In this document: positions 2,218 to 18,539 of the stretch, piece by piece
Position numbering within the stretch: the first letter of the stretch is position 1
How the letters are laid out: each line of letters begins with the position of its first letter
Assembly (NCBI GenBank): GCA_011051425.1
Contig: DRLF01000332.1
Coordinates: forward strand, 1 to 21,138
Source of the DNA: Thiolapillus brandeum
GTDB taxonomy: Bacteria; Pseudomonadota; Gammaproteobacteria; Chromatiales; Chromatiaceae
Direction: 5' to 3'
Length of the DNA stretch: 21,138 bases
The notes under the pieces: generated by a model
Told to the model about the DNA's origin: nothing
The model's input: only the letters and a program-made list of their open reading frames with translations
Database searches by the model: none
Position numbers and translations under genes: made by a program

Positions 2218-4335
2218 TTACACTTTTTCCGGTAGAACGAATCCGGCAACGGACTGACGCAGGCGGTTGGTCTTTTCCGCAAGTTCCCCGATCTCGGCCG
2301 CCGCGTTGGCGGTACCGTCCGTGGTCTGCTGGGTGATTTCCTGGATCACGCCCATGGTATCGTTGAGCTGGCGGGCTTCAGCAGATTCCTGCTGCGCCGA
2401 ATCGGCCAGCTTGGTGATGATGCCGGCGATCTCATTGGATACCTTCTCGATCTCCTGCAGGGCAGAACCCGCATCCTCCGCGAGGCCGGCTCCACCGACC
2501 ACCTCCGTGGTACTGGCTTCCATGGAACTGACCGCCTCGTTGGTATCGGCCTGGATGGTCTGTACCAGCGCCTCGATCTGTTTGGTGGCGTTGGCGGAAC
2601 GTTCAGCAAGGCGCTGTACTTCGTCGGCAACCACCGCGAAACCACGACCCGCTTCACCGGCCATGGCCGCCTGCATGGCTGCGTTCAGTGCCAGGATGTT
2701 GGTCTGGTCGGCGATGTCCTCGATCAGCTCAACGATGTTACCGATCTCCTGGGAGCTCTCGCCCAGGCGCTTGATCCGTTTCGATGTTTCCTGGATCTGC
2801 TCACGGATGTTGTCCATGCCGTTGATGGTGCGGCGCACCGCCTCACCACCCTTGGCAGCCAGTTCAACCGAGTTCTCGGCAACCTGGGCGGACTCGGTCG
2901 CGTTGTTCGACATGTCCTGCAGCGCAACGGTCATCTTGTCGATAGTGCTGCTCGCGCCGGAAATCTGTTCACGCTGGTGTTCGGCGGCATCGGCCAGATG
3001 CATGATGGTCGCCTGTGTGTCCTGTGCAGAACCGGATACTTCCTCAGTAGTCTGGTTGATGGACTCCACCACTTCGCGCATGGCCTCGATGGCGTAGTTG
3101 ATGGAGTCGGCGATGGCCCCGGTGATATCCTCGGTAACCGTTGCCTGTACGGACAGGTCACCATCGGCCAGGTCACCCATCTCATCGAGCAGACGCCGGA
3201 TCGCTTCCTGGTTTCTCTGGTACTGCTCAGCCGTCGCTTCCTCTCGCTTGCGGGCCTGGCCTACCAGCACCATACCCAGCAGAACCAGCAGCACGGCAGA
3301 CAGAATACCCAGTGCGGTTACCAGAGTGGCATTGATGGGGATACCGCCAATCTTCAGCTCACCCGCGTCAGTTCCGTAGAGTTCGATAAGCTTGCGGACT
3401 TCTTCCGCCACCTTGTCTGACGACAGGGCCAGCTGGCTGGGTACGTCCATATCCGGTAATACCTGGCCTTCGGCGAGTGCCTCCTGAGCCATCTCGCTCA
3501 TACCGGCTTCACCAACAGCTTCCAGTGCCGGCAGTACATTGGAAATCATGCTCAGGATCATACCCAGGGATTCGTCGATATCTCCCAGGATAGCTGTCGC
3601 TTCGAGCAGACGCCCCTTGGTATCTTCACTCTTGACCGCTTCGATCCCCAGCACGGCACTGCCGTTCACCAGGGCATCCACCACGGTCTTCAGTTCATCC
3701 ACGTCCTGGGTCAGCTGGTCCACCGCCAGCGCCGTGGCCGAGCCGCCGGCCAGTACATCATTCAGTGCGGTATTGATGCGCTGTGCCAGAAACAGTTGCC
3801 GGGAAGCGTAGAAAATCTGGTTGGGCGTAGCCTTTCCTTCCACCAGTGCGTTGGTAACTTCGGTGGACACCTCGAGCAGATCCGGCAGGGTATCCCGGAT
3901 GGATGTAATGATCTCGTTCACCGTCAGGATGGCATCCTGGTTGTTCAGAATGGCATCCACATGAGAGCGTAGTTCCAGCCAGGCATTTTCCACCTTATGG
4001 AGTTCCGGCTGGATGGCGTCGGGTGATGGCGGCAGCCCAATGGAAGGCTGGCCATTCTTGAGGGCATCGAGCAGTTCCGAAAAACGGTTTCTGGATTCCT
4101 GCATGCGGGCAAATGATGCCTCCTTACCGCTGGCAGCTTCCGATGCGTATTTCGCAATCCGGTGTGCAAGTACCTGCTGCTCGGATGCATACAGGATGTA
4201 CTTGTCCAGATGCTTGCCATGCTTTGCCCATACCACGAAGGCAGACACACCCGCTATCATGGATGCGATCAGCAAGATTGAAAGCAGTGGAACCCATGCC
4301 GACCGTTCGGATCCTTTTTTTGCTCTAGCTACCAT
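2218..4335 (-). CDS. pilJ: PilJ, methyl-accepting chemotaxis transducer of the type IV pilus pathway
   Basis: This is the inner-membrane receptor that feeds the Pil-Chp kinase. It has 705 residues, close to the usual ~680. A transmembrane segment lies near residues 13-36, followed by a periplasmic PilJ-type helical sensor with two related modules ([13 protein letters not shown] near 52 and [13 protein letters not shown] near 179). A second membrane segment lies at about 336-358 and a HAMP region at about 359-412. The cytoplasmic signalling coil has the classic MCP tip ([13 protein letters not shown], then [21 protein letters not shown]) at about 541-580. The start follows a GGGG stretch 10 nt upstream. 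It is separated from pilI by 391 bp containing repeat copy 1, although the two are normally adjacent. No pilK methyltransferase gene follows it before chpA. Confidence 0.97.
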
Positions 4336-4353
4336 TATCTATACCCCATAATC

Positions 4354-4368
4354 GTGAGTTCGACTCAC
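4354..4368. repeat. Short perfect hairpin in the pilJ leader
   Basis: GTGAGT and ACTCAC form 6-bp perfect arms around a TCG loop, 19 bp upstream of the pilJ start codon. No T-tract follows on either strand, so it is not an obvious terminator. It could be an operator half-site pair or a leader RNA hairpin, or it could be chance. Only the inverted repeat itself is seen. Confidence 0.3.
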
Positions 4369-4425
4369 CCAACCAAGTTATTTTTCTGCCTCTTCGGCGT
4401 CGTGCCTCGCATCCAAGCGGATATC

Positions 4426-4705
4426 ATTAACCCGGCACCAATATAGATGACGCTCAGCCGTGATGCACTGTTCGCCAACACGGCATCAGGTTGCCGCTGT
4501 AGTTATTCTACAGCAAGACCTGATAACGCAGTCTGGCGGACAGTGCATAACGGCCCGCCTTTGATATCGATCAGTTGGGGCTTCAAGCCTGCCCCGGCCC
4601 GGCGTTATCGCTTTTGCCAATGGATCAACCATTAGGCGCAAGCGATGCCTTGTTCCGAGGCAGGCTTGAAGCCCTGAGCATCACCTATATTGATGCCGGG
4701 TTAAT
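4426..4705 (+). mobile_element. MITE-like structured repeat, copy 1
   Basis: This is a 280-bp element filling most of the 391-bp gap between pilI and pilJ. Its outer 32-bp terminal inverted repeats (4426-4457 and 4674-4705) start ATTAACCCGG and match at 29 of 32 positions. Arm A (4463-4477 with 4534-4548) pairs ATGCACTGTTCGCCA with TGGCGGACAGTGCAT. Inside it are ATCAGGT/ACCTGAT (4485-4491, 4518-4524) and GCTGTAG/CTACAGC (4496-4502, 4508-4514). Arm B (4578-4593 with 4659-4674) is a perfect 16-bp pair, GGGCTTCAAGCCTGCC with its complement, around an inner ATCGCTT/AAGCGAT pair. It matches copy 2 at 17523-17803 in the opposite orientation, with about 32 differences counted by eye. Both ends carry TTAA, which could be a target duplication or part of the inverted repeat. 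It holds no transposase, only short ORFs that are not conserved in frame between the copies. A non-autonomous mobile element is the best reading. A structured RNA is an alternative. Confidence 0.8.
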
Positions 4706-4726
4706 TTTACCCGCGTTACAGCATTC

Positions 4727-5284
4727 TCACTGCTGCGCTGCGGTCATAAAGTGTTTGTCATTGGCCAGTGCGGCCATGCTGAAAACCGGCCATACGCCGT
4801 CATCCAGTCCGAATACATCATATACATAGCGCCCCAGGGTTCCGTCGAAGTGCGCGTCGGCTATCTGCTTGCTCAGCGGCAGATGGCGCATGCCCAGTAC
4901 CGAAGAAACCAGCAACCCGGTGGATGCCCCCCGGTTCCGGATGACCAGTACACGGGAATGATCATCCACTACCACGGCACCGCCACCGATGAACTGCTGC
5001 AGATCGACGATAGGCAGTAATTCTCCACGGATGTTCGCCAGCCCCAGCATCCAGCTCTTGGTACCCGGTACGCGTGTGACCGCTTCCGGATACGGCAGCA
5101 GTTCCCGGATCTCGTTCATGGCGGATATCACTTTTACGCCATCCAGCACGAATGCCAGTCCCTGCCAGTCCTCTTCCTTGACCATGGTTGCAGGAACCAG
5201 TGATTCCTGCTCCCGGCTGCGCCGGTCCATGTCAGCCAGACGCTGCAGCACTGCGTGAATATCCTGTGCGCCGTCGCCAGCCAT
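4727..5284 (-). CDS. pilI: PilI, CheW-like adaptor of the Pil-Chp system
   Basis: This is a CheW-domain protein of 185 residues that couples the PilJ receptor to the ChpA kinase. The CheW fold is visible in GLAFVLDGVKVISAMNEIREL, then PGTKSWMLGLANIRGELLPIVDL and the closing GRYVYDVF segment. The start at 5284 is chosen because its ATG overlaps the pilH stop by one base (TGATG), and because the residues encoded further upstream in the same frame fall inside pilH and do not resemble PilI. The stop is 21 bp from the edge of repeat copy 1, so transcription from pilI into pilJ must cross that structured element. Confidence 0.93.
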   Translation of the reverse strand: MAGDGAQDIHAVLQRLADMDRRSREQESLVPATMVKEEDWQGLAFVLDGVKVISAMNEIRELLPYPEAVTRVPGTKSWMLGLANIRGELLPIVDLQQFIGGGAVVVDDHSRVLVIRNRGASTGLLVSSVLGMRHLPLSKQIADAHFDGTLGRYVYDVFGLDDGVWPVFSMAALANDKHFMTAAQQ

Positions 5285-5679
5285 CAGTCGACCAGCTCGC
5301 CTACCTTGCTCAGGAGTTGCGACACATCCACGGGCTTGACGAGATAATCCTTCGCACCCTGTCGCATGCCCCATTCCCGGTCGGTATCCTGATCCTTGGT
5401 CGTCACGATAATGATGGGAATGTGTTTGGTCGATGCATTGCGGTGAATCTTGCGCGTCGCCTGAAAACCGTTCAGGCCCGGCATGACCACATCCATCAGA
5501 ATCAGATCCGGCATCTCCTCCATTGCTTTCTGTACACCTTCCTCACCATCTGTGGCAACAACCACCTGATAGCCTTCATCGCCCAGCGCCATACTGAAGA
5601 TATGCACTTCGGTGGGAGAATCATCAACAATCAATACTTTTGCCATATTTTGTTTTTCCACTTGATAAATCGTTGTCAT
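5284..5679 (-). CDS. pilH: PilH, CheY-like response regulator
   Basis: This is a single receiver domain of 131 residues. It contains VLIVDDSPTE, the phosphoacceptor Asp in LILMDVVMPGLNGFQATR (residue 63), the Thr of IIIVTTKDQ and the Lys of YLVKPVD. The sequence GLNGFQATRKI and the TTKDQDTDREWGMRQGAKDY stretch are typical of PilH and distinguish it from PilG. In P. aeruginosa PilH promotes pilus retraction or acts as a phosphate sink. The chosen ATG overlaps the pilG stop (ATGA) and has AAGGCGG just upstream. Homology begins only at a second ATG at 5646 (MAKVLIVDD), which would give 120 residues, so the true start could be either. Confidence 0.93.
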   Translation of the reverse strand: MTTIYQVEKQNMAKVLIVDDSPTEVHIFSMALGDEGYQVVVATDGEEGVQKAMEEMPDLILMDVVMPGLNGFQATRKIHRNASTKHIPIIIVTTKDQDTDREWGMRQGAKDYLVKPVDVSQLLSKVGELVD

Positions 5680-16377: not shown

Positions 16378-17415
16378 TCAGACGAACGCTTCCTTGTTCT
16401 GGGCGCGGGAACGGGCATCCTGCCGGGTAATCAGGCCCTTCTGCAACAGCTCCTTGAGGTGCTGATCCAGAGTCTGCATGCCCACGGCCTGTCCTGTCTG
16501 AATCGCGGAATACATCTGCGCCACCTTGTCCTCACGAATTAGGTTACGGATGGCCGGTGTGCCGATCATGATTTCCCATGCCGCCGTACGGCCGCCACCA
16601 ACTTTTTTCAGCAGGGTCTGGGCGATAACTGCGCGCAGGGATTCCGAGAGCATGGAACGCACCATGGATTTCTCCCCCGCCGGGAACACGTCCACGATCC
16701 GGTCGATGGTCTTGGCGGCGGAGCTGGTGTGCAGGGTACCGAACACCAGGTGGCCGGTCTCGGCCGCCGTCAGCGCCAGGCGGATGGTTTCCAGATCCCG
16801 CAGCTCGCCCACCAGTATGATGTCCGGGTCTTCCCGCAGGGCGGAACGCAAGGCTTCCGAGAAACCCAGGGTATCCCGGTGCACTTCCCGCTGGTTGATC
16901 AGGCATTTCTTGCTCTGGTGCACGAATTCGATGGGGTCCTCGATGGTGAGTACATGACCGTATTCGTTGTCGTTGATGTAGTCGATCATGGCCGCCAGGG
17001 TGGTGGATTTACCGGAGCCGGTAGGCCCGGTCACCAGCACGATACCGCGGGGATTTTCGCAGATGGTCTTGAAGGTAGAGGGACACTGCAGGTCATCGAG
17101 CGTCAGTACCTTGGAGGGAATGGTCCGGAAAACAGCGGCCGCACCCCGATCCTGGTTGAAGGCATTGACCCGGAAACGCGCCAGACCGGGTATTTCGAAG
17201 GAGAAATCCACCTCAAGAAATTCTTCATAGTCGCGACGCTGCTTGTCGTTCATGATGTCGTACACAAGACCGTGCACGGTCTTGTGATCCAGCGCCGGTA
17301 CGTTGACACGCCGGATATCGCCATCCACCCGTATCATGGGAGGCAATCCCGCTGACAAATGTAAATCCGAAGCGTTGTGCTTGACGCTGAATGCAAGCAG
17401 TTCTGTAATGTCCAT
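16378..17415 (-). CDS. pilT: PilT, type IV pilus retraction ATPase
   Basis: This motor depolymerises the pilus and powers twitching. It has 345 residues (P. aeruginosa PilT has 344). Walker A GPTGSGKS sits at 130-137, followed by VLTIEDPIEFVHQSKKC, Walker B DIILVGELRDLETI and the His-box GHLVFGTLHTSSAAKTIDRI. The C-terminal TPAIRNLIRED signature is essential for retraction in PilT. The ATG at 17415 (MDITELLAFSVKHNASDLHL) is preferred over an upstream ATG at 17457, because family alignment begins there and AGAGGG sits 7 nt before it. pilU follows after 50 bp. The upstream region contains a short hairpin and repeat copy 2. Confidence 0.97.
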   Translation of the reverse strand: MDITELLAFSVKHNASDLHLSAGLPPMIRVDGDIRRVNVPALDHKTVHGLVYDIMNDKQRRDYEEFLEVDFSFEIPGLARFRVNAFNQDRGAAAVFRTIPSKVLTLDDLQCPSTFKTICENPRGIVLVTGPTGSGKSTTLAAMIDYINDNEYGHVLTIEDPIEFVHQSKKCLINQREVHRDTLGFSEALRSALREDPDIILVGELRDLETIRLALTAAETGHLVFGTLHTSSAAKTIDRIVDVFPAGEKSMVRSMLSESLRAVIAQTLLKKVGGGRTAAWEIMIGTPAIRNLIREDKVAQMYSAIQTGQAVGMQTLDQHLKELLQKGLITRQDARSRAQNKEAFV

Positions 17416-17481
17416 GAAATCCCTCTTTTTTTCCGGGAAGAAAACTGCCGGATGCACTCAGGTAAAGACCTGCGCCGCCCG

Positions 17482-17522: not shown

Positions 17523-17803
17523 ATTAACCTGTCGACAATATAGGCGATACTCAGGGCTTCAAGCCTGCCTCGGAACAAGGCATCGCTTGCGGCCAATGGT
17601 TGTTCCATTGGCAAAAGCGATAACGCCGGGCCGGTGCAGGCTTGAAGCCCCAACCAATTGATATTTAGAGGCAGGCCATGATGCACTGTCCGCCAGACTG
17701 CGTTACCAGCTCTTGCTGTAGAATGACTACAGCGGCGATCTGATGCCTTGCTGGCAAACAGTGCATCATGGCTGAGCGTCATCTATATTGTCACCAGGTT
17801 AAT
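17523..17803 (-). mobile_element. MITE-like structured repeat, copy 2 (opposite orientation to copy 1)
   Basis: This is a 281-bp element in the divergent gap between pilT and yggS. The 32-bp terminal inverted repeats (17523-17554 and 17772-17803) start ATTAACCTG and match at about 26 of 32. Arm B (17554-17568 with 17636-17650) has 15 perfect pairs and encloses GCCAATGG/CCATTGGC around TTGTT (17592-17612). Arm A (17681-17695 with 17752-17766) encloses GCTGTAG/CTACAGC (17715-17721, 17727-17733). The reverse complement aligns with copy 1 end to end with one single-base gap and about 32 differences. The longest identical block is 42 bp (17550-17591 here, 4637-4678 in copy 1). TTAA stands at both ends. 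The 434 bp between pilT and yggS contain this element, the short hairpin at 17482-17498, and otherwise nothing I can identify. Confidence 0.8.
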
Positions 17804-17849: not shown

Positions 17850-18539
17850 ATGAGCAAACTGCAACAAAGATTATCACAGGTGCAAGCACAGATTAGGCGC
17901 TTTGCCTTATCTTGTGACAGAGATCCAACCGGCGTACGACTCATTGCTGTAAGCAAGACCCGCCCGGCCAGCGATATCCGCGAGGTCTGGAAGGCAGGAC
18001 AGAAGGCGTTTGCCGAAAACTACCTGCAGGATGCCCTGCAGAAAATCCCCGTCCTGCACGATTGCGATATCGAATGGCATTTCATCGGCCGCATCCAGTC
18101 CAACAAGACCCGGCCCATTGCAGAGAACTTCGCCTGGGTGCATACCCTGAGCAGCCTGAAACACGGCCGGCGGCTCAGCGAACAGCGTCCGGAAGGGCTG
18201 CCACCCATCAACATTTGCGTGCAGCTGAATCTCACCGGCGAAGCCAGCAAAAGCGGTATATCCGCAGACGAACTGGCGCCCCTGCTTGAAAAACTGGCGG
18301 ATCTGCCCCATCTGCGGCTGAGGGGGCTGATGACCATGCCCCCCGCATCAGCAACCACGGCGGAGCAGCACGAAGTGTTTTCTCGATTGCATGGGTTGCT
18401 GACAGAAATGAACCGGCAGGGCCATGGACTGGACAGCCTTTCCATGGGGATGTCGGGAGATATGCAGGCAGCCATCTGTGAAGGCGCTACAATGGTGCGC
18501 ATTGGCACTGCGATATTCGGACCGAGAACACAGCAATGA
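17850..18539 (+). CDS. yggS: YggS/PLPBP family pyridoxal phosphate homeostasis protein
   Basis: This PLP-binding protein of 229 residues has no known enzymatic activity and buffers pyridoxal phosphate and amino/keto-acid balance. The PLP lysine is Lys36 in LIAVSKTRPA, the same number as in E. coli. Family blocks FAENYLQDALQK, WHFIGRIQSNKTR, VQLNLTGEASKSGIS, LRGLMTMPP, LSMGMSGDMQAAI and VRIGTAIFGPR are present. The family usually has FGENY and IGPLQ where this has FAENY and IGRIQ, so small departures exist at conserved spots. It overlaps proC by ATGA. Its promoter region begins right at the end of repeat copy 2, 46 bp upstream. Confidence 0.96.
   Translation: MSKLQQRLSQVQAQIRRFALSCDRDPTGVRLIAVSKTRPASDIREVWKAGQKAFAENYLQDALQKIPVLHDCDIEWHFIGRIQSNKTRPIAENFAWVHTLSSLKHGRRLSEQRPEGLPPINICVQLNLTGEASKSGISADELAPLLEKLADLPHLRLRGLMTMPPASATTAEQHEVFSRLHGLLTEMNRQGHGLDSLSMGMSGDMQAAICEGATMVRIGTAIFGPRTQQ

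Follow-up and report, generated by a model that had tools for sequence, protein, structure and literature searches.

The 21,138-nt stretch of DNA analysed here (the window; contig DRLF01000332.1 of a Thiolapillus brandeum assembly) carries a 280-bp repeat at positions 4426-4705 (copy 1) and a second, inverted copy of it at 17523-17803 (copy 2). We propose, with a probability of roughly 0.6 for the reading as a whole, that this repeat is a miniature inverted-repeat transposable element (MITE) of the IS630 type moved in trans, whose two long hairpin arms work as folded single strands, most likely as RNA. The assignment to the IS630-type MITEs is, judged from the sequences of ends and target sites, very probably correct. 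Ordinary MITEs possess conserved ends and a filler middle. In the element of the window it is the middle that is constant in fold, loop and spacing, whereas the ends vary from family to family.

The sequence-only reading of the window had described a cloverleaf-forming repeat at exactly these coordinates and of this length, bounded by near-perfect 32-bp inverted ends, containing two further long hairpin arms, lacking a transposase and accompanied by an inverted partner of 88-89% identity. This description was borne out. Copy 2 is a full-length inverted copy sharing 89% identity with copy 1, and the element measures 280-281 bp. The inverted ends pair over ~31 bp with a few mismatches. Internally there are two arms, 98 and 97 nt long. 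The term cloverleaf is roughly right, the shape being made up of a terminal stem and two large arms joined by a short linker that pairs only weakly. When copy 1 was folded as a single RNA strand, a free energy of -166.8 kcal/mol was obtained, compared to -88 +/- 5.2 for 200 dinucleotide-preserving shuffles, none of which was as good (0/200; z -15.1). No transposase-like open reading frame (ORF) extends across the element; the ORFs inside are attributable to chance only. Identity with a known RNA family, named beforehand as an observation that would speak against a new element, was not found: an Rfam search of the window returned 0 families at gathering score, and the top sub-threshold match within 4300-4800 reached 24.7 bits (mir-9424) at a cut-off of 90. 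The boundary of the element reads TA-TTAACC...GGTTAA-TA; at copy 1 the flanking TA has decayed to CA on the left and TT on the right. The two copies are composed of the following parts:

4426-4456, + strand: left terminal inverted repeat (TIR) of copy 1 (TTAACCCGGC... to TCAG), an IS630-type end pairing with 4675-4705
4457-4554, + strand: arm A of copy 1, 98-nt hairpin module with its CAAGGC-first sense on + (alignments A2 and A4)
4555-4577, no strand: 23-nt linker between the arms of copy 1 (alignment A2)
4578-4674, - strand: arm B of copy 1, 97-nt hairpin module with its CAAGGC-first sense on - (94.8 bits with covariance model R1; alignment A3)
4675-4705, - strand: right TIR of copy 1, pairing with 4426-4456
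17523-17553, + strand: left TIR of the inverted copy 2, flanked by TA (empty-site comparison)
17554-17650, + strand: arm B of copy 2 (R1 98.9 bits; fold z -8.6)
17651-17674, no strand: 24-nt linker of copy 2 (alignment A2)
17675-17772, - strand: arm A of copy 2 (R1 52.6 bits; fold z -8.9)
17773-17803, - strand: right TIR of copy 2, flanked by TA (empty-site comparison)

In arm A of copy 1 the internal loop is substituted and reads CAACACGGC instead of CAGCAAGGC.

The two copies in the window are not the only ones, and multiple copies with conserved ends occur in the genus. Searching the window's own genome, a 2.74-Mb metagenome-assembled genome (MAG) of 84% completeness, with the 280-bp sequence yielded 27 matches at E<=1e-3, including the query itself, fragments and self-palindromic matches. 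The same query found matches in 11 of 38 genomes searched, belonging to 2 of 24 genera. A 21-base end pattern allowing <=1 mismatch detected the element in 12 of 15 genomes of the genus, while the reversed control pattern gave 0 hits in all 15. In the complete genome G007 the ends form 16 inverted pairs 281-284 bp apart and two pairs 131 bp apart. One subfamily of G007 is near-identical at different sites and hence recent. Among named genomes, a structured end pattern revealed at least 113 stretches; the hosts among the matches listed include Sedimenticola, Ca. Thiodiazotropha, the Olavius algarvensis Gamma 3 symbiont, Wenzhouxiangellaceae, Thiohalobacter and Amphritea. A home in phages or plasmids was considered and rejected: the element had no match in plasmids and E. 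coli, the end pattern had none in viral contigs, and the copy of the Olavius symbiont had none in phages.

Empty sites in relatives, proposed at the outset as a mark of mobility, were found at the site of copy 2. We compared the pilT-element-yggS stretch in 15 genomes of the genus, 14 of them relatives of the window's own. In at least four relatives the flanks join directly (G003, G005, G010 and G011); in most others the pilT-yggS intergenic DNA is too diverged for base-by-base reading, and in G002 the flanks lie on different contigs. None of the matches listed for these 15 genomes placed an element at this site in a relative. Where G003 reads CTTATAATAG, the window reads CTTTATA-TTAACC...GGTTAA-TAATAG, indicating a duplication of the target TA around TTAACC...GGTTAA, which was read base by base at copy 2 only. 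A piggyBac-like duplication of TTAA was dismissed, as the empty sites contain no TTAA. In 16 printed copies of G007 the outside base was T on the left in 16/16 and A on the right in 15/16; base preference around the TA was otherwise weak.

The ends of the element belong to the TATTAACCCGGC... type and lead to IS630. Two loci, L245 and L246, carry GGTTAATA ends. Genes of the DDE_3 (IS630) type are present in 2 of the 15 genus genomes, neither of which is the window's own genome or G007. In G003 an IS630 gene is followed by the MITE-type end TATTAACCCGGCAATAAATTAG with its outer tip 23 bp past the stop codon, in G001 by TATTAACCTGGCATCATAATAG with its tip 29 bp past the stop, and at a third IS630 gene, in G140, TATTAACCCGGCAACTGAATAT lies 124 bp past an early stop. 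The best matches to the MITE ends amount to 18/22, 19/22 and 20/22 for G003, G001 and G140, respectively, whereas in the background only 5 of 16,197 TA sites from 86 loci reach 18/22. All three proteins scored above the NCBIfam cut-off for IS630. Seven named IS630 copies were taken among the 30 plasmid matches listed of 1,490 matching records: copies on plasmids of Neptuniibacter, Thauera, Acidithiobacillus caldus, Azotobacter salinestris and Pelobacter, as well as IS1471 and an Acidovorax copy. Within each, the two ends agree with one another at 19-24 of 26 positions, and the 14 ends match TATTAACCCGGC at 7-12 of 12, exactly so at the left end of the Neptuniibacter and the right end of the Thauera copy and most weakly at the left end of IS1471; the ends of IS1471 and the Acidovorax copy are less like TATTAACCCGGC than those of the other named copies. 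IS630 sequences with such ends thus resemble the window's element in their TIRs, in the TA at both ends and in the transposase family of the relics in the genus. In contrast, the named elements are ~1.1 kb in size, carry a transposase gene and lack a two-arm core, whereas the window's element is gene-free and consists mostly of two hairpins. Because the ends match both IS630-family genes in relatives and named IS630 copies, we assign the element to the IS630-type MITEs. The sequence-only reading had suspected a MITE moved in trans, an interpretation that the many copies, empty sites, TA duplication and IS630-family genes with the same end support. As to the transposase gene flanked by the same ends that it had suggested looking for, a matching right end was found behind three IS630 genes, whose left ends are missing or altered.

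Several findings weigh against mobilisation by an IS630 transposase. The defective left ends, on account of which we regard the copies of G003, G001 and G140 as relics, are one of them. Moreover, neither the window's genome nor G007 nor any other genome of the genus yielded an intact transposase bearing both such ends. Of 16 arm-rich genomes, 12 lack DDE_3 genes, and the DDE_3 genes of other arm-rich genomes and the DDE_Tnp_1 loci provided no transposase to match the families with other ends. The 12 genomes without DDE_3 genes would be accounted for if the element were moved by an enzyme of the IS110, IS5 or Y1 type and the IS630 likeness of its ends were convergent, and in four G007 copies an IS110-family element is in fact located precisely at the tip. 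However, the position of the IS110-type sequence is external to the tip, as for an insertion using the repeat as a target, and IS110 was therefore rejected as mobiliser; DDE_Tnp_1 is absent from 8 of the 16 arm-rich genomes, and the TA duplication together with an end identity of 18-20 of 22 behind IS630 genes fits IS630, which makes another mobiliser highly improbable. An origin from Y1/RAYT was likewise discarded: Y1_Tnp occurs in 11 of the 15 genus genomes, but the Y1 loci fetched contain no arms that lack MITE ends.

Candidates for an autonomous copy with two such ends were rejected, too. In G007 no inverted end pair is more than 284 bp apart (<=1 mismatch), and four ends are unpaired. The named loci include five end pairs >340 bp apart, three of which were inspected: L161 is an element with an internal insert, and L146 and L155 hold genes that appear by eye to be house-keeping genes. 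Scans of viral contigs with two IS630 proteins gained nothing. As to the IS110-family element of G007 (L039, L055, L056, L058, L070), the flanks are near-identical, the ORF of L039 matches Pfam Transposase_20 and DEDD_Tnp_IS110, and the element appears to use the MITE end as its target.

The core of the element was analysed in 79 full-length copies. Three of them were not orientable (second arm not of type A), and 58 distinct oriented copies gave 22 representatives differing by >10%, 21 of which were aligned in A2; L133, in which arm B is inverted, was left out. For these 21 diverse copies RNAalifold predicted 100 column pairs, 68 of which show double-sided changes that keep pairing. With CAAGGC read first, arms A and B each measure 97-98 nt; they have in common the invariant positions C23, G26, G27, C28, A70, C71 and G75 and present an invariant internal loop, CAAGGC/AACGC, with identical spacing. 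By the evidence of their sequences, arms A and B are two head-to-head inverted copies of one module. In each, an outer stem of ~20-22 bp leads to the internal loop; 7-8 bp separate this from a second internal loop, beyond which lie the apical stem and a small loop. The sequence-only reading had recognised the two long arms and missed that they are two copies of one class-wide module. Six arms folded singly gave z-scores of -7.4 to -8.9. As fold, loop and spacing are kept while the ends differ between families, selection would act on the folded core, and the pattern of kept shape and changing letters suggests that the hairpin does something not yet described. Nevertheless, the function of the arms is read from patterns of substitution, and copies that are related do not represent independent events, which counts against the proposal.

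Paired double changes could also arise without selection on the fold, if the arms were functionless parts of an IS630-type MITE and the palindromes were held in register by self-correction in cruciforms, i.e. by intrastrand gene conversion. In agreement with this, the terminal repeats, which are paired for another reason, covary as well. However, gene conversion leaves unexplained why an unpaired loop is invariant at identical positions in both arms and why the length is fixed at 97-98 nt across genera, and we regard it as improbable.

Individual copies deviate from the common layout. In L044:1501-1826, L014, L047, L176, L186, L209 and L211, arm B contains an extra insert of ~46-58 bp close to the conserved internal loop; these inserts occur across different subfamilies and represent a nested repeat with a preferred site. 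Solo palindromes of ~34-51 bp consisting of terminal repeats only are present at separate sites (L021, L023, L154, L162, L179 and W03 407580-407630) and are arm-less derivatives. In L133:4283-4566 arm B alone appears inverted relative to the remainder of the copy, so single arms may flip.

The module extends beyond the window's family. Covariance model R1, built from arm B (E-values are rough; 20-22 candidates per genome were scored), detected the arm at E<=1e-4 in 44 of 185 sampled genomes of the class. In an overlapping sample of the phylum 39 of 199 genomes were positive, 20 of them outside the class and 19 of these in one family; this family is probably zetaproteobacterial, as inferred from a named Zetaproteobacteria MAG that carries the arm. 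Loci of other families contain two convergent arms bounded by 30-36-bp repeats of unrelated sequence at TA, often CTAG, with ends of the types TAGTGTCCTGTC.., TAGTACTCCTTC.., TACTAAGACAAACG.. and TACCCAAACCACCTC... In 21 of 22 such pairs the arms are separated by 7-10 nt and in one (L271) by 23 nt, compared to 23-26 nt in the window's family. In all families seen, the arms adjoin the terminal repeats on their inner side. Near-complete copies are present on Pseudoalteromonas chromids in 4 records, where no feature is annotated for them. Between hisS and ispG, a copy is present in CuT4-3 and absent in HL-AS1 and SDCH90; the target duplication is less clear here, the right flank being diverged. 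Further arms were observed in two places. The right part of L058 (G007) is a separate element with ends GGAACCTCTGA.. beside CTAG and one arm of the same module. Likewise, at L308:2440-2710 plasmid pAcX50f of Azotobacter chroococcum carries a two-armed element that is unannotated; its GGGTCTGTTGACG.. ends at CTAG represent a further end type.

The strand on which the module works was addressed through its mismatched pairs. The logic for STRANDEDNESS was that G.T and A.C mismatches should be about equally frequent if an arm were relevant only as duplex DNA. In 21 elements found by their ends and read on the arm-A-first strand, the ratio of G.T to A.C was 39:11 in arm A, 4:19 in arm B and 17:24 in the terminal stem; hence, each arm favours G.T on its own CAAGGC strand. 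Within the outer stem, 20 of the 24 G.T pairs of arm A (21 arms) and 10 of the 14 of arm B (20 arms, the first 20 of the 22 rows of A3) lay at positions 15-17. Among 49 non-redundant arms found by the model, G.T exceeded A.C in 32, fell below it in 2 and equalled it in 15. For the other families, arms beside non-TTAACC ends were considered: 51 were typed, three with TTAACC-like ends were dropped, and the remaining 48 gave 42 non-redundant arms. In these, T.G pairs with T on the 5' strand fell on positions 15-17 in 37 of 54 cases, compared to 1 of 19 for A.C or C.A and 3 of 17 for G.T in the opposite sense. Intrastrand gene conversion would remove T.G pairs, yet these are kept at 15-17 with fixed polarity. 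Two reservations count against a functional reading of these pairs: the arms of other families were found with the arm-B model, which could favour pairing (arm A lies outside this model and yet shows the same T.G pattern), and T.G could be kept to break long perfect palindromes.

In the mechanism that we propose, an IS630 transposase would act in trans on the TATTAACCCGGC ends of an element that inserts at TA and is bordered by TA on both sides. The core, two inverted 97-98-nt modules, keeps pairing, spacing, internal loop and T.G site while stem sequences and, between families, even terminal repeats change, and would work as a folded single strand in the CAAGGC-first sense. As RNA, the module might provide a processing or protection site in read-through transcripts and thereby render insertions tolerable to the host; with two inverted modules, one would be in the working sense whichever the direction of transcription. 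We hold a single-stranded function of the arms to be probable on the strength of these patterns. Their action as RNA rather than as single-stranded DNA is a more tentative proposal, held at less than even odds overall. RNA is favoured because the U.G site is natural in RNA, because copy 1 lies within a co-directional run of genes and because transcripts of NEMIS MITEs are proposed targets of RNase III (PMC2229807).

Fold, fixed 97-nt geometry and strand polarity would be explained equally well if the arms acted as hairpins of single-stranded DNA, extruded as cruciforms or formed on the lagging-strand template, and were bound by a transposase or host protein, e.g. for joining the ends of an IS630-type MITE; the position of the arms directly inside the terminal repeats would suit this role. 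We consider it unlikely, albeit the most serious of the alternatives. The arms are common to families with unrelated ends and are thus not tied to one transposase, and no arm without MITE ends was found in the Y1-transposase loci fetched. IS630-type (DDE) enzymes act on duplex ends. Furthermore, the two 131-bp copies of G007, in which both arms are disrupted, are 127/131 identical and located at distant TA sites, so they look moved. From this, movement probably does not require intact arms, which weakens any transposition role of the arms and favours a role in host tolerance. A tentative extension of the preferred reading, in which the arms act as folded single strands of an IS630-type MITE, is that the module is a widespread, undescribed structural domain of nucleic acid, in which a hairpin of 97 nt combines a fixed internal loop with a U.G site and is arranged as an inverted pair. 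Having been transferred between IS630-type MITEs whose ends are unrelated, it would have spread through Gammaproteobacteria and a second class. By engaging a host factor, either as RNA or as single-stranded DNA, it may allow a selfish element to function, or to be tolerated, whichever way it is oriented.

Among known repeats, the Correia/NEMIS, ERIC and RUP MITEs resemble the window's element in small size, lack of a transposase, TIRs, TA at the ends and an RNA fold, and RUP has been linked to an IS630 element (PMC2229807). They measure ~100-200 bp and form a single end-to-end stem loop according to a review (PMC2229807), whereas the window's element is 280 bp long, has two conserved inverted modules and a core spread more widely than any terminal repeat. 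The Caulobacter CIR repeat, marked by a GANTC motif in a loop, likewise possesses two long arms and a linker; compared by description only, it differs in that no end-to-end stem is described for it in PMC2229807, while the window's element has a TIR stem. REP/REPIN sequences with their RAYT (Y1) share inverted hairpin pairs in intergenic DNA, but REPs are 20-40 bp in size (PMC3733652), as opposed to arms of 97 nt, a TA duplication and no link to Y1. The open-access literature, searched by topic and by sequence string, yielded no published description of the element among the entries listed, which is weak evidence of absence; the earlier assessment as undescribed was accordingly not refuted. 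By kind, the element is a MITE, and the two-arm conserved core common to several end types is, as far as seen, new. It raises the question of what recognises a 97-nt hairpin that numerous marine and sulfur bacteria carry in many copies per genome, and the covariance model would allow annotation of many unexplained intergenic repeats.

Copy 1 is flanked by a methyl-accepting chemotaxis gene (2218-4335, - strand) and a gene at 4727-5374 (- strand), which had no NCBIfam match at 1e-10 and resembles CheW by eye only. Two further response-regulator-like genes follow upstream on the same strand, placing copy 1 inside a co-directional gene run. This run looks like a pilus-chemotaxis operon, and copy 1 is therefore probably transcribed. 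Copy 2 is located between divergent genes of the pilT family (16378-17457, - strand) and yggS (17850-18539, + strand). At 4350-4378, shortly upstream of copy 1, CGTGAGTTCGACTCACCCAACCA resembles by eye the 3' part of a tRNA gene; ARAGORN detected no tRNA in the window.
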